DNA from: a virus
Strand: one strand, 5' to 3'
Length of the DNA stretch: 37,307 bases
Virus record (IMG/VR): IMGVR_UViG_3300034062_002964
Span: 1 to 37,307 of that record
Both the position numbers and the translations under genes were made by a program. The notes beneath the pieces were generated by a model. It was not told the origin of the DNA and ran no database searches. It saw only the letters and a program-made list of their open reading frames with translations. This document shows, piece after piece, positions 5,821 through 24,251 of this stretch. How positions within the stretch are numbered: the stretch's first letter is position 1; each line of letters begins with the position of its first letter.

Positions 5821-6948
5821 ATGGCTAACCCAATCGACATCAGTAACGTCGTTACGATTTCCGTATCCGAAGCTCCTGCGGGCTTGTCGGATTTTCAAAT
5901 CAACAACCTCCTCATCCTCACCAAAGAAGTTGCGGTGGTTTCCCCCGGCAATTTTGGCGTCTATCTCAACCCTACCGATGTCGGCACGGATTGGGGTACT
6001 TCGTCTGAAGCGTACGCGATGGCGAATCTCATTTTCTCGCAGCAACCCAACATCATTTCCGGTGGTGGCTCGCTCATCATCGCCAATCAAGGCTCAAGCG
6101 AAACGCTTGCTGAGGCTATTGCTCGCCTTCAACCCTTGGTGTTCTTTGGCGGCGTACTCTGGGCGGGTTATGCTCCTACGGACGCTCAGATCCTAACCGC
6201 CGCTGCGGTGGTGCAGCCTCTCCGCAAGATGTTGTTTGCCTCTTCGCATCTCGCGGTGTCCGTTGATACCGGCGAGATTTTCGACGACGTTAAAACCGCT
6301 GGTTACACCTACGTCCGTTGTTTGCTCTACACGGTCAGTGCGCAAGCAGCCCGCTACATGGCGGCGGCTTATGCCGGTCGTGCGATGTCCACGGATTTCT
6401 CGGGTAGCCTCACGACTGCCACGATGCACATGAAAGAGCTGATCGGCGTCTTGCCTGACCCGAGCATCACTCAAACTGTCCTCAACAAGTGCAAAACGGT
6501 TGGCGCGGACGTGTACATCAACATCGGCGGTCTTTCCAAGGTGTTCTGCACCGGTGGCAATACCTACTACGATTCGGTGTACAACCTCACTTGGTTGGTG
6601 TTTGCCCTCCAAGTTGCGGGTTTCAACGCCATCGCGACGACCTCGACCAAGCTCCCCCAGACCGAAACCGGCATGGCCGTTCTCCGTGGCGCTTACCTCA
6701 ACGTCCTTACGCAAGGCGTGGTCAACGGCTACTCCGCACCCGGCACTTGGAATGGCGCGATCCCGTTCGGCAATCCTGCCGTCTTCGCTCGCAACATCTC
6801 CCAGCTCGGTTTCTACCTCTACTCGGCTCCAGTCAGCACCCAATCCCAAGCGGATCGTCTTGCTCGCCAAGCCCCGCTCGTTCAGATCGCCGTCAAGGAA
6901 GCTGGTGCAATCCAATCCAGCTCGGTCATCGTCAACGTCCAAGCCTAA
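5821..6948 (+). CDS. Tail sheath protein (DUF3383 family)
   Basis: Contractile tail sheath of the DUF3383 type, 375 residues. The N-terminal region has SEAPAGLSDFQINNLLILTKE followed by GVYLNPTDVGTDWGTSSEAYAMANLIFSQQPN, which are the family hallmarks. The central part includes the segment KMLFASSHLAVS and the C-terminal half has GYSAPGTWNGAIPFG and RQAPLVQIAVKEAGAIQ. Many copies form a tube around the tail tube that shortens on infection to drive the tube through the cell envelope. The tube gene follows, as in other contractile tails. The sheath identifies this phage as a myovirus. High confidence. Confidence 0.88.
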   Translation: MANPIDISNVVTISVSEAPAGLSDFQINNLLILTKEVAVVSPGNFGVYLNPTDVGTDWGTSSEAYAMANLIFSQQPNIISGGGSLIIANQGSSETLAEAIARLQPLVFFGGVLWAGYAPTDAQILTAAAVVQPLRKMLFASSHLAVSVDTGEIFDDVKTAGYTYVRCLLYTVSAQAARYMAAAYAGRAMSTDFSGSLTTATMHMKELIGVLPDPSITQTVLNKCKTVGADVYINIGGLSKVFCTGGNTYYDSVYNLTWLVFALQVAGFNAIATTSTKLPQTETGMAVLRGAYLNVLTQGVVNGYSAPGTWNGAIPFGNPAVFARNISQLGFYLYSAPVSTQSQADRLARQAPLVQIAVKEAGAIQSSSVIVNVQA

Positions 6949-6967: not shown

Positions 6968-7423
6968 ATGTCTGTCGTCTCACTTACTGGTAACGATACC
7001 ATCGTAATCGCGGGCCGAGTCCTTACGGATTTCGGTGATGCCGATAACGCCACCTTGGAGTTCCCGAACGAACTTGCCGCCGTCAAGGTGGGCAAAAACG
7101 GTAACGCCATTTACGCTCTCAACGCCACCGGTCGCATGGCCGATGTCGTTCTTCGCATCATTCGCGGCTCGAACGACGATGCCTTCCTCAACAACCTCCT
7201 CGCCATCCAAAACGCCAATTTTGCGGCTACCGTGCTTCTCACCGGTCAGTTCGTGAAACGGGTCGGCAATGGTCTTGGCGGCGTCATGAGCGACACCTAC
7301 TTCACGTCTGGCGGCATCTTCTCGAAAGCCGTCAACGCCAAGTCGAACGTTGAGGGTGATACCGAGCAATCGCTCGCGATCTACACCTTGAAGTTCTCGA
7401 ACGCTGACCGCGCTCAACTGTAA
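6968..7423 (+). CDS. Tail tube protein
   Basis: 151-residue beta-rich protein directly after the sheath gene, where contractile phages encode the inner tail tube. It begins with SLTGNDTIVIAGRVLTDFGDADNATLEFP, continues with a segment VVLRIIRGSNDDAFLNNLL and a strand AATVLLTGQFVKRVG, and ends with LAIYTLKFSNADRAQL. The strand order and length fit tube proteins such as those of Pam3-like phages. The tube is pushed through the host envelope when the sheath contracts and carries the DNA. Position and pattern support the call, but no single diagnostic motif is present. Confidence 0.75.
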   Translation: MSVVSLTGNDTIVIAGRVLTDFGDADNATLEFPNELAAVKVGKNGNAIYALNATGRMADVVLRIIRGSNDDAFLNNLLAIQNANFAATVLLTGQFVKRVGNGLGGVMSDTYFTSGGIFSKAVNAKSNVEGDTEQSLAIYTLKFSNADRAQL

Positions 7424-7426
7424 TTT

Positions 7427-7840
7427 ATGAGCGAGCCGATCACGCTTAAAAGTGGGGCAGTCCTGATTCTCGGGACGCCCTCCTTTGCCCACGGGATGAA
7501 GCTGTTCAAGGTCATCGTCAACGAACTCAAACTCGTTGACCTCGATCTGAGCACGCTCGATCTCCGGGCCTTTGCAGGTAAGGACATCAACAGTCTCAAG
7601 AACGCCATTTTCCAGCTCCTCGGTTCCGATGCGCTGGAGAACGCGATCTTCGATTGTGCGATGAAATCTACCTACAACAGCATGAAGATCACTCGCGACA
7701 CGTTCACCCCCGACGAAGCACGCGCCGACTATTTGCCGGTCGCGTGGGAGGTGATTAAGCACACGCTGCGCCCTTTTTTCGCGAACCTAGACTTGTCGTT
7801 CTTGAGCGCCGACAAGCCGCAACAAAGCGACCCGCAGTAA
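7427..7840 (+). CDS. Tail assembly chaperone, short (zero-frame) product
   Basis: 137-residue protein between tube and tape measure genes, where tail assembly chaperones are always found. It is helical, with an N-terminal ITLKSGAVLILGTPSF segment, then LKVIVNELKLVDLDLSTLDLRAF and a C-terminal part with VAWEVIKHTLRPFF. After residue 118 a TTTTTTC slippery site is followed by a hairpin. A -1 shift there fuses the first 118 residues to a second frame (separate entries). By analogy with lambda G/GT and P2 E/E', the short form and the fused form would act together to coat the tape measure during tail assembly. Confidence 0.8.
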   Translation: MSEPITLKSGAVLILGTPSFAHGMKLFKVIVNELKLVDLDLSTLDLRAFAGKDINSLKNAIFQLLGSDALENAIFDCAMKSTYNSMKITRDTFTPDEARADYLPVAWEVIKHTLRPFFANLDLSFLSADKPQQSDPQ

Positions 7841-8013
7841 GGATCACAATGGACAATGCGCTGTTCATTGCCCTTCGGCTATCGAAGGAGGGCTTTGGCA
7901 GCGTAGAGGCCATTTTGGATATGAGCTTGGACGTGGTTCTAGCCACGTTGGAGTACTCGACATTCCTTGCCGAGTACGAGGAAACTGCTATCGAGATTAA
8001 CAAAGAACCGTGA
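7427..8013 (+). CDS. Tail assembly chaperone, -1 frameshift fusion (G-GT / E-E' type)
   Basis: Predicted fusion of about 195 residues: 118 zero-frame residues up to the Phe-Phe at 7775-7780, then 77 residues in the -1 frame to the TGA at 8011-8013. The -1 frame has no stop from the slip site through to 8013. It contains the small downstream ORF, so the joined frame explains why that ORF exists. The equivalent fusion in P2 also uses a T-TTT-TTG site in the tail chaperone. The efficiency cannot be read from sequence. The coordinates include both frames; the true product changes frame at 7780. Confidence 0.75.
7774..7780 (+). promoter_or_regulatory. -1 slippery heptamer T TTT TTC
   Basis: Read in the zero frame this is T-TTT-TTC, matching the X-XXY-YYZ rule for -1 slippage with both tRNAs able to re-pair. 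It lies 19 codons before the stop of the short chaperone, and the -1 frame is open through to 8013. Confidence 0.8.
7792..7816 (+). promoter_or_regulatory. Stem-loop downstream of slippery site
   Basis: CTTGTCG at 7792-7798 pairs perfectly with CGACAAG at 7810-7816, giving a 7-bp stem with an 11-base loop. It starts 11 bases after the slippery heptamer. This is the expected place for a structure that stimulates frameshifting, although slightly farther than the usual 5-9 bases. Confidence 0.7.
7849..8013 (+). CDS. Downstream tail chaperone ORF (T-like part)
   Basis: 54-codon frame between the chaperone and tape measure genes. It encodes a short helical peptide with LFIALRLSKEG, VEAILDMSLDVVLATLEYS and a Glu-rich end. 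It is the second part of the frameshifted chaperone. AAGGA at 7839-7843, five bases before the ATG, is one of the few Shine-Dalgarno-like sites in the window, so separate translation is also possible. Its stop overlaps the GTG start of the tape measure gene. Confidence 0.6.
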   Translation: MDNALFIALRLSKEGFGSVEAILDMSLDVVLATLEYSTFLAEYEETAIEINKEP

Positions 8014-9233
8014 AAATCGCATCCCTATTCGTCGAGCTAGGTTTCAAGGTCGAAGGCAGCGACCTCGATAGTATGCGCTCATTCGAGACGACCCTGAGCA
8101 ATATCGCGGCATCGGCAGAGCGGGCGGTAGCGGCTTTGAAGCAGTTGGGGATGGTGAAGATCAAACTGCCCCGCACTCCTGCGGCTGCGGCAGCGACCCC
8201 CGGTGCAGCAACAGCTACCCCAACACCTTCGGCCCCTTCTCGCCCTTTGCCGGGGATGATGGAGTTCATTGGGCCGGTTAAACCTCCTACGCCGCCCCCG
8301 GCAGCACCGGCTTCTGGAACTTTCGGATCTTCAATTTTTGCCGGACTGTCCAAAGCATTTCCCGGCCTCAAGATGTTTGCCCAGTTGGGCGCATTGGGCG
8401 CGGTAGTGGCGCTACTTTCCAAAGCGGTCACTTCGGCTACCACGGCGATAATCCGCATGAGCAAAGCCGCGTTGGACTCTGCCGTTTCTACGGACAAGGC
8501 TCGCGCCACTACCGGGTTGTCCGTTGCAGAGATTAAAGGTTTTGAGATGTTCGCTGCAAAAGCAGGCATTGGGTCGGACGCTGTTGTCGAGTTCGCTAAA
8601 AATTTGCAGACTGCGGTTCAAGAAATGCGGTACGCCGGTGGTGATCCGGTGGCGTATGGTTTTGCTCAAGTTGACCCGTTCCAACCCGTTGCAGGCTTCT
8701 TAAAAGATTTTGTTAGCCAGACAAAAGATTTGACGACGGAAGAAGCCCGTTACCGTGCGCAACGCATCGGCATGAACGACGAGCTGTTTTATGCGTTGCG
8801 TCAGTACGGGCCAGAAATTTCCAAAGCTCTTGATTCGTCTTTGATGTTGTCGGATGAACAACAGAAAAACACTCGCGAGGCAGCTCAAGCGTTGTCGGAA
8901 CTTACCCTCGCAGTGAAGATGACCTACGATGCTTTCTTTGCGGATCTAGCTCCGTTGATCCGCGACATCGCGAACGGTCTTCGCAGTTGGTTGCTATACA
9001 CGCCAAGTAAAAATCTTCAGTACCAGAACAGCTATATCCGCCCAATGGCTCCACCGGTATCCTCTTCGGTACGCTCTTCCGCTAATCAAAACACGGTCAC
9101 GGTAAATGCGGACATCCAAGTTGACGGAGCTAAAAATCCTACGGTTACGGCTGAACTGATTAGTCGGGAACTGAAACGGAGTCTTTCGGATGCCTACTAC
9201 CAATCCCCCGCGTTTCAAGGGGTAAATCGCTAA
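8010..9233 (+). CDS. Tail tape measure protein (short)
   Basis: 407-residue protein after the frameshifted chaperone genes, the position of the tape measure that sets tail length and occupies the tube lumen. The N-terminus MKIASLFVELGFKVEGSD is a common start of tape measure proteins. Residues about 53-104 are a Pro/Ala linker, residues about 120-155 are hydrophobic, and the middle (about 155-300) is helical. A GTG start at 8010 overlaps the TGA of the chaperone. At about 1.5 Angstrom per residue, the usual rule for extended helical tape measures, tails would be near 60 nm, short for a myovirus. No lysozyme or peptidase domain is visible. Confidence 0.8.
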   Translation: MKIASLFVELGFKVEGSDLDSMRSFETTLSNIAASAERAVAALKQLGMVKIKLPRTPAAAAATPGAATATPTPSAPSRPLPGMMEFIGPVKPPTPPPAAPASGTFGSSIFAGLSKAFPGLKMFAQLGALGAVVALLSKAVTSATTAIIRMSKAALDSAVSTDKARATTGLSVAEIKGFEMFAAKAGIGSDAVVEFAKNLQTAVQEMRYAGGDPVAYGFAQVDPFQPVAGFLKDFVSQTKDLTTEEARYRAQRIGMNDELFYALRQYGPEISKALDSSLMLSDEQQKNTREAAQALSELTLAVKMTYDAFFADLAPLIRDIANGLRSWLLYTPSKNLQYQNSYIRPMAPPVSSSVRSSANQNTVTVNADIQVDGAKNPTVTAELISRELKRSLSDAYYQSPAFQGVNR

Positions 9234-10973: not shown

Positions 10974-11599
10974 ACACCGCACCCCTAGCCTCCATCGCGG
11001 CACCAGATATGCGGTTGGTGCTGGACACTTGGATGAACAATTCGGCTTTGAAGCTAAACTGTCATCGGATCGGCACCATTGTTTCATTCGACACCGCCAA
11101 GCAAACGGCATCCGTTCAGATCGCCGCCCTTGCGGTGTTTGGCGACAAGACCGTGCCGTACCCTATCTTGACCCAGTGCCCGGTGTTTGTGCCTTCTGGT
11201 GGCGGCGGATGTCTGACCATGCCGGTCAGTCCGGGCGACTCCTGCCTCGTCCTGTTTAACGACCGGGACATGGACAACTGGTACGAGTCCGGCGCGGTTA
11301 CGGCTCCCAATACCGCACGCACGCACGACCTGAGCGACGGACTGGTGATCGTGGGTTTCCGGCATCAGGCCAACCCGATCCCGGATTACTCAGTGGACGT
11401 GGAGATGCGACACGGCACCACCATTGTCGGGTTGGAGGACAGCGGCAAAATAAGTATCCGCAATCAAGATACTACCTTGAAAAACGTGATGACCACTCTC
11501 ATAACCGCGCTGAATAAATTAGATGAGAAATCACCTAGCGGCAGTGCAGTTACCCAGATTCAGGACGTGAACACTCTCATCCAACAACTCCTCAAATGA
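10970..11599 (+). CDS. Baseplate spike protein (Gp138 N-terminal domain)
   Basis: 209-residue protein with an OB-fold-like Gp138 N-terminal domain: RIGTIVSFDTAKQTASVQIAALAVFGDKTVPYPIL (about 31-65), CPVFVPSGGGGCLTMPVSPGDSCLVLFNDRDMDNWYESG and then a DLSDGLVIVGF block (about 123). These are the marks of spike tips that pierce the outer membrane. The C-terminal part begins with VEMRHGTTIVGLEDSGKISIRNQ and ends with a predicted coiled coil. The gene overlaps the hub stop (ATGA) and is followed directly by the plug-fibre fusion. High confidence on family. Confidence 0.85.
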   Translation: MNTAPLASIAAPDMRLVLDTWMNNSALKLNCHRIGTIVSFDTAKQTASVQIAALAVFGDKTVPYPILTQCPVFVPSGGGGCLTMPVSPGDSCLVLFNDRDMDNWYESGAVTAPNTARTHDLSDGLVIVGFRHQANPIPDYSVDVEMRHGTTIVGLEDSGKISIRNQDTTLKNVMTTLITALNKLDEKSPSGSAVTQIQDVNTLIQQLLK

Positions 11600-14500
11600 A
11601 GATCATCACGGGCCTATCGGAGCAACCAAAACAGCAATCTACGCTTGTCCTTGCTGACGGGACTCGGGCTGTCTGGTCGATCTCCTACGTCGCACAGCAG
11701 ACGGGTTGGTTCTACGATCTGAGTTGGAACGGCACGGTGATTGCCACCGGTCAACGCATGGTGTCCTCCCCAAACATCCTGCGGCAGTACATCAACAAAA
11801 TCTCTTTCGGCATCGCGGTCATCTCGCCCAACCAGCTCGAACCGACGACCCAGACGGCGTTGGTCGATGGCACCGTCACCTGCTACCTTCTCGAAGGGAC
11901 GGATCTCCAGACCATCGAGACGACGCTGTTCAATGCCCCTGCCGGTCAGGTTCAACCGGTTGCCACTACTTCTGCCGGAGCACCGGTCGTCGTGTTGCCC
12001 GCAAATTGGGGGCCAGCGGGCGGGGATCTGGCGTATGCCTATCCCAATCCGCAAGTCGTCGCCATGCACGACAACACCGGTCAACGGTTGGCCTTTGGTA
12101 CGGTTGCCGATGGCAGGTTCCTCAAACGCGACGGAGCAAATATCATTGGTGCAACCGTAGCTCCCGGCACGGGCGATGTCAGCGGTCCGGCTTCTTCGAC
12201 TATCGGCAACGTCGCGGTGTGGGCCGATGCAGCAGGTACGGAGTTATCCGATGGCGGCACTCTGGGTACGGCTGCGTTCTTGCCTAGCTCCAATTTCCTT
12301 GGCGCTACCGCCGCCGCTACCGGGGATCTGGCGGGCAATTTTCCCAGCCCAAGAGTTGCGGCTATCCATACCACCACTGGCGGCGGGACCAAGCTCACGA
12401 TTGGCGCGGTTGCCGATGGTCAATATCTCGTTCGCAGCGGCAGCACTTTGATCGGCAGTACGCCCAGCGGTGCCGGTGACGTGTTCGGCCCTAGCTCGAC
12501 CGTGACGGTTGGCACCGTGGCGCTATTCGCAGCGACGGATGGCAAGTTGCTCGGACCTTCGGGGATTACTTTGGGAAGCATTGCTTCTCAGCCTGCGAAC
12601 AGCGTGAATATCACGGGAGGCAATATCTCCTCAGTTTCTATCACGGGTTCCACTGCGGCTCTCACCGGTTTAACCGTCAACACCACTACCCCTTCGAGCT
12701 ACGGTTCTATCGAGGTTAGCGGCACGATTGGCGCGTTTATTGATCTTAAATCTCCTGACACAGACGACTACGATCTCCGCATCATTACCGGTGGCAGCGG
12801 CGGACAAATTGTTGCTTCGGGCGATACCGGTATCGAAATCATTACCAATAATGTTCAACGGGCGCTAATTAACACCTCGGGTCTTGCGGTAACAGGCGCT
12901 ATTTCGGCTACCAGTACCCTTAGTGCCAGCAATTTTAGTGGCAGTTCCAGCGGCACAAATACCGGCGACCAAACTCTCTCCAGTTTGGGTGCAACAACTC
13001 TGGGTGCCAACCTAGTTACCATAGCCAATCCGAGCGCGATAACTTTTCCGCGATTTAATGCGGATAACACCGTCTCATCTCTTTCTGCGTCAGCTTTAAG
13101 AACAGCTATTGGAGCGACGACTATCGGTGCCAACGTATTTACTTTACCCGATCCCGGCGCGATAACATTCCCACGTTTTAACGCCGACAACACGGTTTCA
13201 TCTCTTTCCGCAACGGATTTTCGGACCGCGATTGGTGCGGGCACCAGTTCCACGACCGGCACAGTTACAAGCGTTGGCGGAACTGGTAGCGTCAACGGTA
13301 TTACCTTAACGGGTACCGTGACAAGTTCGGGCAGTCTGTCGCTTGGTGGTACTTTATCGGGTGTCAATTTGGCGTCTCAAGTTACCGGCAATCTTCCTGT
13401 TGCAAATCTCAATGGAGGAAATAATGCTACCGGTTCTACTTTCTGGTGCGGTAACAATACTTGGGCAACTCCCCCCGGCGGTGGCAATGTCACGGGTACT
13501 GCTCCCACCATAGCTGGACGCCTTGCGTCTTTCAATAACACTCTAGGAACCGGCATCCAAGACAGTGGGGTTCTCGCTTCCGACGTGGTAGTACAGGGCG
13601 GTAACGCTACATTAAGTATTGCGGCTATTACTCAACTTAAACTCGCGGCAGAACTTGGTTATCCCACTGGGGGGTCGATCACGTTCGATCTTTCGGTTAG
13701 CCGTAATCGTATAGCTCTTACAACCAGTCTCACCATTTCCGCTACTGCCAACAGAGCAAACAACGTCTCAAGTGTTCTCGAACTTTACAATTCAACCGGC
13801 GGATATTTAACGATCACTTGGTCGCAACTTGCTTCGTGGAAAACGAACGGCGTACTTCCCACGGCTATTGCTCCGGGTCAAACTCTTCAATTTCTTTTTC
13901 AGTGCTGGGGCACTACCGAAAGCGCAGTTTCAATAAACTACATTAACCAGATAGATTTTAAGCAGTTTAATGTACGCAACTACGGCGCAACCGGAGACAG
14001 CTCGACCAACGACCGCGCTGCTATTGCGGCGGCAGACTCTGCGGCAAACGCCGCCCGAGGGGTCTTGGTATTCCCTGCGGGTACCTATTACGTCGGAAGC
14101 AGCTTAACCCTCTCTTCTTCTGCGCAATTTGAGGGCGGGGCTCTTTCGATTGCTTCGGGTCAAACAGTCACCTTTAACCAAGCGGTAGTCGCCCCCGTTC
14201 AGCGGCTATTCTACGGGTCTGGCGTGGTTAGAATGGAGTTTCGCGGTGCTAAATGCCCCGTGGAATGGTGGGGCGCAGGCACCGGAACTGAAAGCACTCA
14301 AGTGGACGACAGGGCTTTTATCCAAGCAGCCTTTGAAGCGTGCCGAAATTATGGCGGGGACATATTTGCCGAAGTGATTTTTTCTCGCCAGTACTGGCTG
14401 TCGGATGAAATTGTCGTCCTATCAAACATAGGCATCGACACAAATAGTGCCTCGGCTTTGATGTCTAAAACCACCTCTGGAACTGGTAAAGGGTTACGGA

Positions 14501-15525
14501 TTCAAGGCCCTTTTGACACAAATCGAACTTGGAATTTGCCTAACTTTTCCGGGTTTACTGTCTTCGCTCTTAAAGTAGATCAAGCAAGCACGGCGCGAAT
14601 TAACATCGGACAAATATCTGGAAGCGGGCTTCTTGGCGACGGCATTGCGGTAGGTTGCAATGTAGTAGGCGCATCGACTCTGGATAACATCTTTAATGTT
14701 AATTTTATCGCGGGTTGCAAAAGTGCAATAAGGATATATTCCAACGTGGATGCAGTTGTAGCTCCTTTAGCTACTATCGAAGGAAATGAGTTTAACGTAA
14801 ACTTTGTAAACGACAATCTCAACGGCGTTGTGTTTGATTCCCTAGATGATTACACTCTTCCAACAGGAGTGGCTTACACCAAAGGAAGTGCATGGGACTG
14901 CAACATTTTCAACATAACCGCTCTTGACGCCCATGCCGGAGTTCGGCGCGGATTTTGGTATCGCGCCACCGGGTTACAGTACAGTCAAAACGTATTCCGA
15001 GTTCCGGTTTGGTTTGGGGGTTTTGATTCAAGCGGCATTTGGATTGACACAAGTGCCGCGACCAAAAGCACGTTTGAAATCGGGGTTCGTACGGGCGAGC
15101 AAATGATTTCTTACGGACAGTTAAACCTAAGGGGAAGCGGGAACACGCTTGTAATCAACGGATCAGGAAACACTTTTGGCGATCAGTTAGCCCCCACCAC
15201 ATTTACCGCAGTAACCAGTTCGGGCAGAGCCGGATTCAACGGTGGATCGCCTGTTCCTCGCAATCGAATGAAAGTTGATTTTGTGCTTTCTGGTGCCAGA
15301 GCCTTTGGTGATACTCAAACTTTCTATATTTATTCTCCGCTAGTTGATGGATACTCTAACCGCTTGCGCGTGTCGTTTATTGACAGCGGGGGGTTCATTG
15401 TTAATAATCTGTATGATAACAGCAACAACGTGGCGAATGAAATTGTTGTCGTATTTCAAAACGCCAGCGGAGTAACTCGTCCAATAGATTTTGTTATTTC
15501 TGCGTGGGTTGAAATTGCATATTAA
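11596..15525 (+). CDS. Baseplate plug domain fused to a long tail spike with pectate-lyase-like fold
   Basis: 1309-residue protein. Residues 1 to about 115 match the Pam3 gp18 plug type (QSTLVLADGTRAVWSISY, GWFYDLSWNGTVIATG, then ISPNQLEPTTQTALVDGTVTCYLLEG). In other phages this plug is a separate protein of about 100-120 residues at this locus. It continues into a long shaft: two 100-residue repeats starting at 12021 and 12321 (300-base period), a GTNTGDQT module near 450, a 41-residue repeat (ITFPRFNADNTVSSLSA twice), and Gly/Thr-rich linkers. From about residue 788 (FNVRNYGATGDSSTNDRAAI, then VLVFPAGTYYVGS) a pectate-lyase-like beta helix follows, usual in polysaccharide-degrading spikes. 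A small C-terminal domain completes it. Catalytic residues cannot be assigned. Confidence 0.8.
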   Translation: MKIITGLSEQPKQQSTLVLADGTRAVWSISYVAQQTGWFYDLSWNGTVIATGQRMVSSPNILRQYINKISFGIAVISPNQLEPTTQTALVDGTVTCYLLEGTDLQTIETTLFNAPAGQVQPVATTSAGAPVVVLPANWGPAGGDLAYAYPNPQVVAMHDNTGQRLAFGTVADGRFLKRDGANIIGATVAPGTGDVSGPASSTIGNVAVWADAAGTELSDGGTLGTAAFLPSSNFLGATAAATGDLAGNFPSPRVAAIHTTTGGGTKLTIGAVADGQYLVRSGSTLIGSTPSGAGDVFGPSSTVTVGTVALFAATDGKLLGPSGITLGSIASQPANSVNITGGNISSVSITGSTAALTGLTVNTTTPSSYGSIEVSGTIGAFIDLKSPDTDDYDLRIITGGSGGQIVASGDTGIEIITNNVQRALINTSGLAVTGAISATSTLSASNFSGSSSGTNTGDQTLSSLGATTLGANLVTIANPSAITFPRFNADNTVSSLSASALRTAIGATTIGANVFTLPDPGAITFPRFNADNTVSSLSATDFRTAIGAGTSSTTGTVTSVGGTGSVNGITLTGTVTSSGSLSLGGTLSGVNLASQVTGNLPVANLNGGNNATGSTFWCGNNTWATPPGGGNVTGTAPTIAGRLASFNNTLGTGIQDSGVLASDVVVQGGNATLSIAAITQLKLAAELGYPTGGSITFDLSVSRNRIALTTSLTISATANRANNVSSVLELYNSTGGYLTITWSQLASWKTNGVLPTAIAPGQTLQFLFQCWGTTESAVSINYINQIDFKQFNVRNYGATGDSSTNDRAAIAAADSAANAARGVLVFPAGTYYVGSSLTLSSSAQFEGGALSIASGQTVTFNQAVVAPVQRLFYGSGVVRMEFRGAKCPVEWWGAGTGTESTQVDDRAFIQAAFEACRNYGGDIFAEVIFSRQYWLSDEIVVLSNIGIDTNSASALMSKTTSGTGKGLRIQGPFDTNRTWNLPNFSGFTVFALKVDQASTARINIGQISGSGLLGDGIAVGCNVVGASTLDNIFNVNFIAGCKSAIRIYSNVDAVVAPLATIEGNEFNVNFVNDNLNGVVFDSLDDYTLPTGVAYTKGSAWDCNIFNITALDAHAGVRRGFWYRATGLQYSQNVFRVPVWFGGFDSSGIWIDTSAATKSTFEIGVRTGEQMISYGQLNLRGSGNTLVINGSGNTFGDQLAPTTFTAVTSSGRAGFNGGSPVPRNRMKVDFVLSGARAFGDTQTFYIYSPLVDGYSNRLRVSFIDSGGFIVNNLYDNSNNVANEIVVVFQNASGVTRPIDFVISAWVEIAY
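12021..12620 (+). repeat. Two 100-residue shaft repeats in the plug-fibre gene
   Basis: CGGGGATCTG occurs at 12021-12030 and again at 12321-12330, a period of exactly 300 bases. The protein repeats GDLAYAYPNPQVVAMH... and GDLAGNFPSPRVAAIH... keep the order VADGxFL, then GDVxGPxSS, then a valine-rich strand. Similarity at DNA level is mostly limited to short words, so the duplication is old. Confidence 0.7.
13036..13212 (+). repeat. 41-residue repeat with synonymous divergence
   Basis: The same 18 residues (AITFPRFNADNTVSSLSA) occur at 13036-13089 and 13159-13212, 123 bases apart. Eleven of the eighteen codons differ and all differences are silent. The surrounding residues are similar too (GANLVTIANPS against GANVFTLPDPG). 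Confidence 0.8.
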
Positions 15526-19628: not shown

Positions 19629-22600
19629 ATGTCTGGCCCAGCTTTTCAACTTGTATATTCTGACGCGGCAACTTGGGGCAATCCTCCCGAAAACTACACG
19701 TTCGTCGGCGTGGACGATAACGGCCTACTGGTTTTCAAAACCCATAACGGGGTGATCTCCCGACCCCTGATACCCGCTATCACCGACCCCATATTGGCGG
19801 GTAGCACTATCTTGTTCGACGCCTCAACAAACACTTGGAAAAACGCTCGGCTTACTGCGGGCGACGGTATTCAACTTACTTTTGGTAATGCCTCGGTCAC
19901 TATCTCGTCCACATATGTTGAATCCGTTTCAAGCGTTTTTGGTCGAACGGGCAACGTCGTTGCAGTTGCCGGAGATTATTCGGCATCGCTAATTACCAAT
20001 GTTCCCAGCGGAGGTATTTCTGCTACCAACGTACAGTCGGCTTTGAACGAATTGGACGGCGACAAATTGGCTAAGGCGGCAAATTTAAGCGACCTTACTT
20101 CTGCCTCAACCGCTCGAACCAATTTGGGATTGGGCACTCTTGCCACACAAAATGGCACGTTTAGTGGCACGTCTTCTGGCACGAACACGGGGGATCAAAC
20201 GATTAGCATCGCCGGGGACGTATCCGCTCCCGGTTCCCAAAGTGTCCTCACTGCCACCGTAACTAAAATCAATGGCACTTTATTGGCCGGATTAACTACG
20301 GGTATTCTCAAAAACACCACGGGCACCGGCGTCCCGTCCATCGCGGTTGCCGCTGACTTCCCGACGCTCAATCAGAACACCACGGGCAACGCCGCCACTG
20401 CGACCAACGTCGCCATTACTGGCGTCACGGGTCTGGGCACGGGCGTTTCGTCGTTCCTGCAAACTCCGACCAGCGCCAACCTGTCCTCGATGATTGTCGA
20501 TGAGACCGGATCTGGAAATCTGGTGTTCTCCAATTCTCCGGTCTTGGTGACACCCAATCTGGACACCCCTTCGGTTCTGACCCTGACCAACGCCACCGGT
20601 CTGCCGCTCACGACGGGCGTCACGGGCACCCTTCCTGTCGCCAATGGCGGCACGGGCGTCACCACTTCGACGGGCACCGGCTCTACCGTGTTGTCGGCTT
20701 CGCCTACGTTCACCGGCACGCCCGCTGCGCCGACGGCAGCAGTGGGTACGAACACGACCCAAATTGCGACGACGCAGTACGTCCAATCCAATCGCGGTGA
20801 CAAGTACCTCACCACGTCCAATAGCACCAACACGATCAACAACGGCAACGGCAAGATATTCAACTGCGCCATTGATCTGAGCTATATCCCGACTCAGCCC
20901 GTCACGATTGTTTATGACGTGAACAACCACATGCACGGTTTTGTTGTCAGCTACAATATCGCCACAGGCGTTATGGTTGTGGACATGGATTCGCATACCG
21001 GCAGCGGTACCTATTCTGCATGGACGATCAACATTGGCGGTCTTACCTCTGTTGGCGGCGCACTTCTTTCAGCCAACAATCTCAGCGACGTAGCTTCGGC
21101 TTCTACGTCTCGCGCTAATCTTGGTGTCACGGCAACGGGTCAGGATACGACCTACCTGTACCGCACTAACAATCTCAGCGATCTTAGCTCGACCAGCACC
21201 GCCCGCACCAATCTCGGATTGGGCACGATGGCGACGCAGGACTCGACCAACATCTCGGTCTCCGGCGGCACCCTTGCCTCGGTGACGCTGACGACGCCGA
21301 CGATCTCCTCGATCACCAACACCGGCACGCTGACGTTGCCTAACCAGACGGACACTCTGGTTGGACGTGCGACAACGGACACGCTCACGAACAAGACACT
21401 GACGAGTCCGACGATGACCGCGCCGGTTCTCGGCACACCGTCCAGCGGCACGCTGACGAGCTGCACGGGCCTGCCTCTGACAACGGGCGTGACCGGCACG
21501 CTACCAGTGGCAAACGGCGGCACAGGCGTGACCACCTCGACGGGCAGCGGCGCAAACGTGCTCTCTACGTCTCCCACGCTCACGACGCCAATCTCGGCGT
21601 CGCTCACCTCGCCAGCCGCCTCCAACCTTACCCTCGGCACCGGCACCTTCGGCACCGCGTTGACGTTCACCAGCGCGACGGGCGCGGCGACGTTTTCGGC
21701 TCCTGTTTCCGTTTTTGGGTCAACCGGCACCGAAGTAAATTTTGCGCTCAATCAGAGCGGGGTTGGGCAGTGGTCTTTACGCAACATAGCCACGAGCGGC
21801 GACTTTCGGTTATCGGTCGGCGGCAACGATTGGTTTAGCATCGTCCGAACTACCGGCGCGGCGACGTTTGTGGGCGCGATTGTTGGCCCGTCACTCACCT
21901 CGCCAGCCGCGTCCAACCTGACGCTCGCGGGCGGCGCAGGAAACAGCAGCATCTTGCTTACCCCACAAGGCACCGGACAGGTCTACACATCAAAATTCGC
22001 GGTTCAAAGCACGTCCTCGGCGTCCCGGCTTTCTCTCGATGTTGCTGACGCGACGACGACGCTTGGCCCTGTAAATTCACTGGAAGTCTTCAACAGCAAC
22101 GCGACGGTGAACAACATCTCCGGTCTTCTGCTCGGGCAGAGTTCAAGCGTGTATGCCGCAATCGCGGCAGTCCACAGCTCGCGCACGGGTGGAGCGCGGT
22201 CCATTGAACTGGATTTTTGGTCTGCGATTGGGAACACGCCAACGCAGCGTATGAGGCTCGCCAGTTCGGGTAATCTCCTCATAGGCGGCACGACCGACAT
22301 CAGCGGATCAGGCGGGCTCAAGGTGTTCGGCACCACCGCCAGCACCTCCACCACGACCGGCTCCTTGGTCAACGCGGGTGGCTTTGGCAATGCGGGGGCG
22401 GGTTACTTCGGGGGGCTTGTTTCCACCGGCAGTCGGTTCGTATTTACTGGTCCCGGAGTGGTTCCCGGCGCATCCGAGTTAGCCATCGGGACAAACGGAG
22501 TTGGCACGCGGATTCTGTCCAACGTCCCAACGGGCGGGGAGTTTAATTTTACCGTGAACGGCACTACTGTCACGGCGATTAACGCGACCACCGGCCTCTA

Positions 22601-24251
22601 CACCACGGGCCTAATCAACAGCACAAACACCACCGCCAGCACATCCACGACGACCGGCTCGCTCATCAACGCGGGCGGGTTCGGGAATGCGGGGGCGATC
22701 TTCGCGGGCGGCACAATCACTTCGGCAACGGCCAGCCATAACAGTATCACCAGCGCAGCCGCCTCCAACCTGACCCTAGGCACCGGCAGCTTCGGCACGG
22801 CGACGGTTTTGGCTTCTGCCACCGGGGCAATGACTCATGGTCCTTTTGCCACGTTTCAATCCGGGTTTCACGCTAATTCTGCTGTCGCGTCCATCGACAC
22901 CGCCTCATCCGGTGTTCTCGGTTTGAAGTTAGGCGTTTTGACAAACTCGCCATCCAACTCAACCGACGCCTTCGTGGGCGTTCAAAACACAGGCGGCCCC
23001 GGTGCGACCGCAGGCGATCTTCTATACATTGCCCGGTCTAGCGTCGCGGCAAGTCACCGCTGGTTCACCGGCAACGGCGGCGCGATTACATCCCGCATGG
23101 TGCTCAACAACGCGGGCGATCTTTCGCTATCGAGCACCACCGCCAGCACGTCCACCACGACGGGCTCTTTGGTCAACGCGGGCGGGTTTGGTAATGCGGG
23201 GGCGGCTAACTTTGGAAGCACGCTAGACGTGATTAGTGGCTTGCGCGACATAAGCAGTGGTCTGTCCCAATTTTCAGTCATAGCAACCGGAACTAGCGCC
23301 ATCGCCAACGGCGGCACGATTCAACTTGGCGGCGTATTTACAGGCACTTCTCAGGGAACCTTCGCCGGGCTTAAAGGCCAAAAGGAAAACGGCACCGATA
23401 ACAACACGGCAGGCGCACTTACCCTTTGGACGCGACCAGCAGGCGGCGCAATGACGCAGCGGGCCACGCTTTCGAGCGTTGGAAATTTCTCGCTGTCCTC
23501 CACCACCGCCAGCACGTCCACCACGACCGGAAGTTTGGTCAACGCAGGCGGCTTCGGCAATGCGGGTGACATTTGGGGCGGCGGCAAAGCCCGCATCGGC
23601 GGCAACTCGCTCTCTGGATTGGACGGCGGCGTGGGCGCGGACTTCGCCGTGACTTCAACCTCAGTCGCAAATGTTGCGGGCTTCTTGCAAGGCAGTTCGG
23701 GTCGTGGCATCCGGCTCTATCAAAATGGTTATGTGAACAGCACCACAGGCGGCGATTGGAGCGTCGCGGCAACGACGGCAGGAGCCAATATGTCTGCCGG
23801 AACTAACGGTGCCGCATCAGGCGGCACGCTGTCATTCACGGCTCCGACGTTGCTCTCGGTGCTCAACACCACCGCGACCTCATTGCAAAGCGCAGGCGGT
23901 ATCCGCTCGACCTCCGCAACGGGCGGCATCGGCTACGCGACCGGCGCGGGCGGCGCAGTCACGCAGATCACGAGCCGCACCACGGGCGTCACGCTCAACA
24001 CCGTCGCAGGCGCGATCACGCTTTTCACCGATGGTGGCTCAGAATTTTGGCAGAGCTTCACCGTCACCAACTCCGTCGTGGCCGCGACCGACACCATCAT
24101 CGTCAACCAGCGCAGCGGGACCGACCTTTACATGATGCACGTCACCGCCGTCGCCGCTGGCTCCTTCCGCATCAGCTTCGCCACCACGGGCGGCACGACC
24201 TCCGAAGCACCCGTGTTCAACTTCGCAGTCATCAAAGCCGTCTCCGCCTAA
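19629..24251 (+). CDS. Long repetitive tail fibre
   Basis: 1540-residue fibre. The N-terminal anchor (about 1-50) is shared with the preceding small ORF. Residues about 165-180 hold [15 protein letters not shown] and the [10 protein letters not shown] module also seen in the plug-fibre gene. Then come repeated shaft modules: [20 protein letters not shown] type at 20595 and 21465, [12 protein letters not shown] type at about 21607, 21895 and 22747, and four [21 protein letters not shown] units. The middle has a conserved fibre segment near 22080-22330 ([33 protein letters not shown]). No enzymatic motif is seen. The C-terminal end ([33 protein letters not shown]) is the likely receptor-binding tip. 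Adhesin in the outer baseplate is the likely role. Confidence 0.8.
20595..21551 (+). repeat. Silently diverged fibre module pair
   Basis: A 29-residue block ([19 protein letters not shown] followed by TGVTTSTG and a T or S, then G) occurs at 20595-20681 and 21465-21551. Only one residue differs (Thr against Ser), but most codons differ at the third base. Confidence 0.75.
22335..23570 (+). repeat. Four 22-residue fibre repeats
   Basis: The unit [20 protein letters not shown] plus two residues occurs at 22335-22400, 22632-22697, 23139-23204 and 23505-23570 (residues 903, 1002, 1171 and 1293). DNA identity is high, in contrast to the GLPL pair, so these copies are more recent or recombine with each other. 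Confidence 0.85.

Follow-up and report, generated by a model that had tools for sequence, protein, structure and literature searches.

The gene at 7427-7840 on the plus strand of the window, a virus record of 37,307 bases, encodes a tail assembly chaperone, which very probably exists in two forms due to programmed -1 ribosomal frameshifting. Most ribosomes would read the gene to the TAA at 7838-7840 and release a short form of 137 aa. A minority would move back by one base on the sequence C_CCT_TTT_TTC (7771-7780) and translate the -1 frame as far as the TGA at 8011-8013, yielding a long form of 195 aa to which a second small domain is added. By analogy with gpG and gpGT of phage lambda, the short form may serve as a coat for the tape measure protein, and tail tube subunits may be recruited through the second domain. 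A sequence-only reading of this DNA had already proposed a programmed -1 frameshift in the chaperone gene, and the proposal is now backed by a conserved site, by protein conservation in both frames and by relatives that have no start codon for the second part. The identity of the gene, the slippery site and its conservation, and the conservation of the -1 frame as protein, including the linker, are results of the computation; from these we infer the slippage itself and a rate that would leave most ribosomes in the 0 frame.

The chaperone gene is part of a contractile-tail module, which comprises the sheath (DUF3383, phrog_205; 5821-6948), a structural protein (6968-7423), the chaperone, a probable tape measure protein with a GTG start (8010-9233, plus strand; phrog_2013 and phrog_2276), a Dit-like protein, a baseplate hub and a Pam3-like plug. 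As in systems of the lambda G/GT kind, the gene has the tail tube region on one side and the tape measure gene on the other. Its 0-frame product (TAC-N) matches phrog_1613, tail assembly chaperone, and reaches 23.5 bits against the Pfam family PF21822 (Phage_TAC_15), which is just over the curated cut-off of 22. Fifteen of the 16 aligned relatives match the same family at E <= 0.001, the best of them with 6.1e-9. The AlphaFold model of the product (mean pLDDT 73.5) resembles a predicted phage tail assembly chaperone from a viral library (E 2.7e-7, TM 0.70). Foldseek against the PDB gave no significant match for either chaperone domain, a profile search of solved structures found no relative of the chaperone, and no DNA-level relatives were found among named phages. 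Two further proteins of the window were recorded on the way. A 1309-aa protein (11596-15525) carries at its N-terminus a baseplate plug domain similar to Pam3 gp18 and in mid-chain a pectate-lyase-like domain, and hence combines plug and spike-like parts in one chain. An ORF of 1540 aa (19629-24251), located 3' of the baseplate genes, has no Pfam match at all.

The sequence-only reading had named T_TTT_TTC at 7774-7780 as the slippery heptamer. This heptamer is real and lies in the 0 frame of 7427-7840 on the plus strand, but it is only part of the site, since the invariant core is C_CCT_TTY just 5' of it. In the window this core reads C_CCT_TTT (7771-7777, plus strand), a feature which had been missed together with GGAGGTG at 7747-7753 and the GTGA overlap at 8010-8013. 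The two overlapping heptamers form a composite site, 70 and 67 nt from the end of the ORF, and slippage on either of them would result in an identical protein. We propose that the Pro- and Phe-tRNAs slip back by one base on C_CCT_TTT_TTC, where both can re-pair one position further 5'. In E. coli the sequences C_CC.U_UU.U, C_CC.U_UU.C and U_UU.U_UU.C are shift-prone (PMC4066793), and the tRNAs of the phage host are assumed to behave in the same way. Of the ORFs of the window that encode 100 aa or more (97, counting both strands), 7427-7840 alone has an in-frame heptamer of the type X_XXY_YYZ (only AAA and TTT were scanned for YYY) and, in addition, a -1 frame that extends at least 90 nt past the stop.

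Relatives representing 19 diverged lineages were collected from named phages and viral contigs as well as from one genome bin of Opitutae. All 19 lineages have C_CCT_TTT or C_CCT_TTC at the corresponding alignment position, read in the 0 frame. T_TTT_TTN is kept in 17 of them and is lost in L060 (CCCTTTCTTC) and in Bdellovibrio phage phi1422 (CCCTTTTAC). Comparison of the same site in related phages had been suggested as a check, and it confirms a conserved site, although the heptamer originally named is lost in these two relatives. As C_CCT_TTY is invariant and T_TTT_TTN is absent from L060 and phi1422, C_CCT_TTY is probably the core under selection. The codon 5' of CCT specifies any of seven residues (R, A, S, G, V, L or T), but its third base is always C. 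The Pro at the site is always encoded by CCT, compared to a CCT share of 8-32% among the Pro codons of these loci. Synonymous constraint starts near codon 107 and continues through the overlap. Due to the shared ancestry of the lineages and the poorly resolved chaperone tree, product probabilities across lineages overstate the significance of these patterns. L060 is the Opitutae bin contig CAIYUD010000104.1, so that a related tail module occurs in a Verrucomicrobiota genome bin; this may indicate which group of hosts these phages infect, with binning errors being possible. In 286 genomes of the class to which the bin belongs, no PF21822 match was found beyond the known one.

No stop codon interrupts the -1 frame between 7759 and the TGA at 8011-8013, in agreement with the earlier claim of an open frame up to 8013. 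The fusion comprises 195 residues, the size that had been estimated, with 118 residues from the 0 frame and 77 from the -1 frame (7780-8013, plus strand), joined at RPFF/REPR. The downstream part matches phrog_16793, a group without assigned function, and AlphaFold predicts it to fold into a small, compact domain (mean pLDDT 84.7). Protein-level conservation of the -1 frame is seen both upstream of the 0-frame stop and beyond it. For the linker between the site and a downstream ATG (PRLVV..KRKA..KRP..), conservation far exceeds that under a randomisation preserving the 0-frame protein, with z values in three sets of 20.5, 13.9 and 8.6. When the test was reversed, the tail of the 0 frame likewise proved to be under constraint (z 12.1, 10.3 and 3.7). 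Since a product started at the ATG would omit the linker, its conservation in the -1 frame indicates that this frame is read as a fusion through the linker.

The same linker speaks against a reading without any frameshift, in which the downstream ORF is a separate gene that is translated from its own start only. The window does contain such a start with a plausible ribosome-binding site (7839-7851, plus strand): AAGGA at 7839-7843, as pointed out in the sequence-only reading, is located 5 nt 5' of the ATG at 7849. However, the conserved linker lies upstream of this ATG, the slippery site is invariant, and the start codon is absent in some relatives. In L020, L060 and L071-L079 no ATG, GTG or TTG for the downstream part was found near that place, which leaves frameshifting as the only evident route there; on the poorly resolved chaperone tree, this may represent one or several independent losses of the start codon. 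We therefore regard the downstream-gene-only reading as highly improbable and reject it on the linker conservation and the missing starts. It is a different matter whether both routes operate in the clade of the window, with the fusion made by frameshifting and a free second domain of 54 aa made from ATG 7849. Besides the AAGGA five bases ahead, an ATG at this place in most lineages and the separate annotation of the downstream ORF in the phi1422 record are in favor of such an arrangement. On the other hand, L010, L011, L052, L053 and L057 keep the ATG but have only a poor ribosome-binding site or none, the ATG is missing from the lineages named above, and the Met may be merely a conserved residue, so that we consider the use of both routes possible but rather unlikely. 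The earlier claim of two routes to the second part may thus apply to the clade of the window, but it is not general. Transcriptional slippage on the T run, giving mRNAs of altered run length in place of ribosomal slippage, deserves hardly any credence. The run consists of six T in the window and of seven in L005 and L006, and six T are short for slippage of the polymerase. Moreover, the run is broken in L060 and phi1422 while C_CCT_TTY is still in frame, for which reason we reject transcriptional slippage as the general mechanism.

A perfect 7-bp stem 3' of the site had been put forward as part of the frameshift signal. The arms of this stem exist: CTTGTCG at 7792-7798 and CGACAAG at 7810-7816 (plus strand) are perfect complements, starting 11 nt 3' of T_TTT_TTC. 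Its role in the signal did not hold up. Shuffling the 70 nt downstream, with dinucleotides preserved, gives a perfect stem of 7 bp or longer in 3.7% of the shuffled sequences, and the stem alone is therefore weak evidence. Across the relatives, 70.5% of cells allow the pairing, compared to a shuffled mean of 70.0%, and the stem is not contained in the minimum-energy fold of the window (z -0.84). With pairing at the shuffled level and the stem missing from the fold, we reject 7792-7816 as a stimulator. RNAalifold found no consensus structure 3' of the site in the relatives, and Rfam gave no match over 7400-8100. An alternative 6-bp hairpin in the relatives (alignment columns 33-38 with 45-50) is not claimed either, since its covariation is weak and dual coding already fixes its 5' arm. 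Frameshift sites of phages often have no downstream structure (PMC3091744), and the analysis of the present site revealed none that is conserved.

A candidate stimulator is located on the 5' side of the site. GGAGGTG (7747-7753, plus strand), 17 nt 5' of C_CCT_TTT, is a Shine-Dalgarno-like element, in which GAGGTG complements the anti-Shine-Dalgarno sequence. The codon GAG is kept in 17 of 17 lineages and GTG in 16 of 17, while codons slightly upstream vary freely. The combination GAG_GTG is found in 16/17 lineages at this place, in contrast to 16/107 E-V pairs elsewhere in the same loci, and this constraint falls 5' of the site, where the -1 frame is non-coding. A Shine-Dalgarno spacing of 9-14 nt is stimulatory for -1 shifts (PMC5009743), and spacings of 6-17 nt have been used in searches (PMC4066793). 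The distance of 17 nt is longer than the former range and at the edge of the latter. In view of this distance, we only propose that the conserved GAGGTG may function as a frameshift stimulator.

At its 3' end, the -1 ORF overlaps the tape measure gene, with TGA and GTG sharing the sequence GTGA (8010-8013). A four-base overlap of the ATGA or GTGA type, with ATGA in many of the relatives, is present in 12 of the 19 loci examined, and in most of the others stop and start lie within 5 to 13 nt of each other. The stop/start overlap suggests that synthesis of the tape measure protein may be translationally coupled to the long form of the chaperone. Frameshifting could then also deliver ribosomes to the tape measure start, which would add to the main explanation and not replace it. 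Both the frequent close junctions and the GTG start of the window, which has a weak ribosome-binding site, fit with such a delivery, but four-base overlaps are common between phage genes, and we consider the additional function doubtful. A combined model, in which C_CCU_UUU and U_UUU_UUC act as a composite tandem with the upstream heptamer as core, GAGGTG at 17 nt and not a hairpin stimulates the shift, and the shifted ribosomes end on the tape measure start, is offered tentatively, as plausible although short of probable.

Based on the sequence evidence, the chaperone gene of the window is a new and well-supported case of a known mechanism, as described for lambda G/GT, P2 E/E+E' and phage Adele. 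In lambda and P2, too, a short and a long chaperone are made from one start by a -1 shift, and the genes are located between those for the tail tube and the tape measure protein; the frameshift site of lambda is GGGAAAG. The proteins of both phages are not recognisably similar to the chaperone of the window in these searches. The P2 site is TTTTTTG (PMC3091744), which bears out the earlier statement that the P2 heptamer is similar. The chaperones of Vandenendeviridae and Andersonviridae (phage Adele) are also from myophages and have a conserved -1 site inferred by comparison, but their conserved motif is GTTTTT (PMC12846349). In the tail chaperone gene of the siphophage 9g, a very similar composite slippery sequence, CCCUUUUUUU, reportedly causes a -2 shift (PMC4276943), whereas the shift in the window would be by -1.

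By chaperone sequence, gp57/gp58 of Bdellovibrio phage phi1422 is the closest counterpart in a named phage (37% identity). It has the same place, a -1 frame that is open through, C_CCT_TTT in frame and GAGGTG at an equal distance, but T_TTT_TTC is absent, and gp57 and gp58 are annotated as two separate hypothetical genes. Haemophilus (Aggregatibacter) phage Aaphi23 is a myophage with a related DUF3383 sheath, and its ORF54-54', just 5' of the tape measure gene, has a -1 extension and is deposited as a joined gene. Its site, however, is T_TTT_TTT without the C_CCT_TTT part, and the sequence of its second domain differs. In all 17 sampled named phages with a DUF3383 sheath, the gene at the chaperone position has an in-frame heptamer, and its -1 frame extends 158-209 nt beyond the stop. 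BUCTT20, EKP1, P18-100 and 606R2 contain three overlapping heptamers in tandem, e.g. GGGAAATTTTTTG. Nearly all named DUF3383-sheath phages in the set L093-L108 are deposited without a joined chaperone gene. Among the named-phage records fetched, Aaphi23 ORF54-54' alone is deposited in joined form, and several records have no gene over the second part.

With this sequence evidence, the range of a classic recoding mechanism widens to include an uncultured group of phages with contractile tails. In most of the related records examined, the second half of the chaperone has been missed or is listed as a separate hypothetical gene. The conserved Shine-Dalgarno-like element at an unusual distance bears on the question of how -1 frameshifting is stimulated in bacteria.
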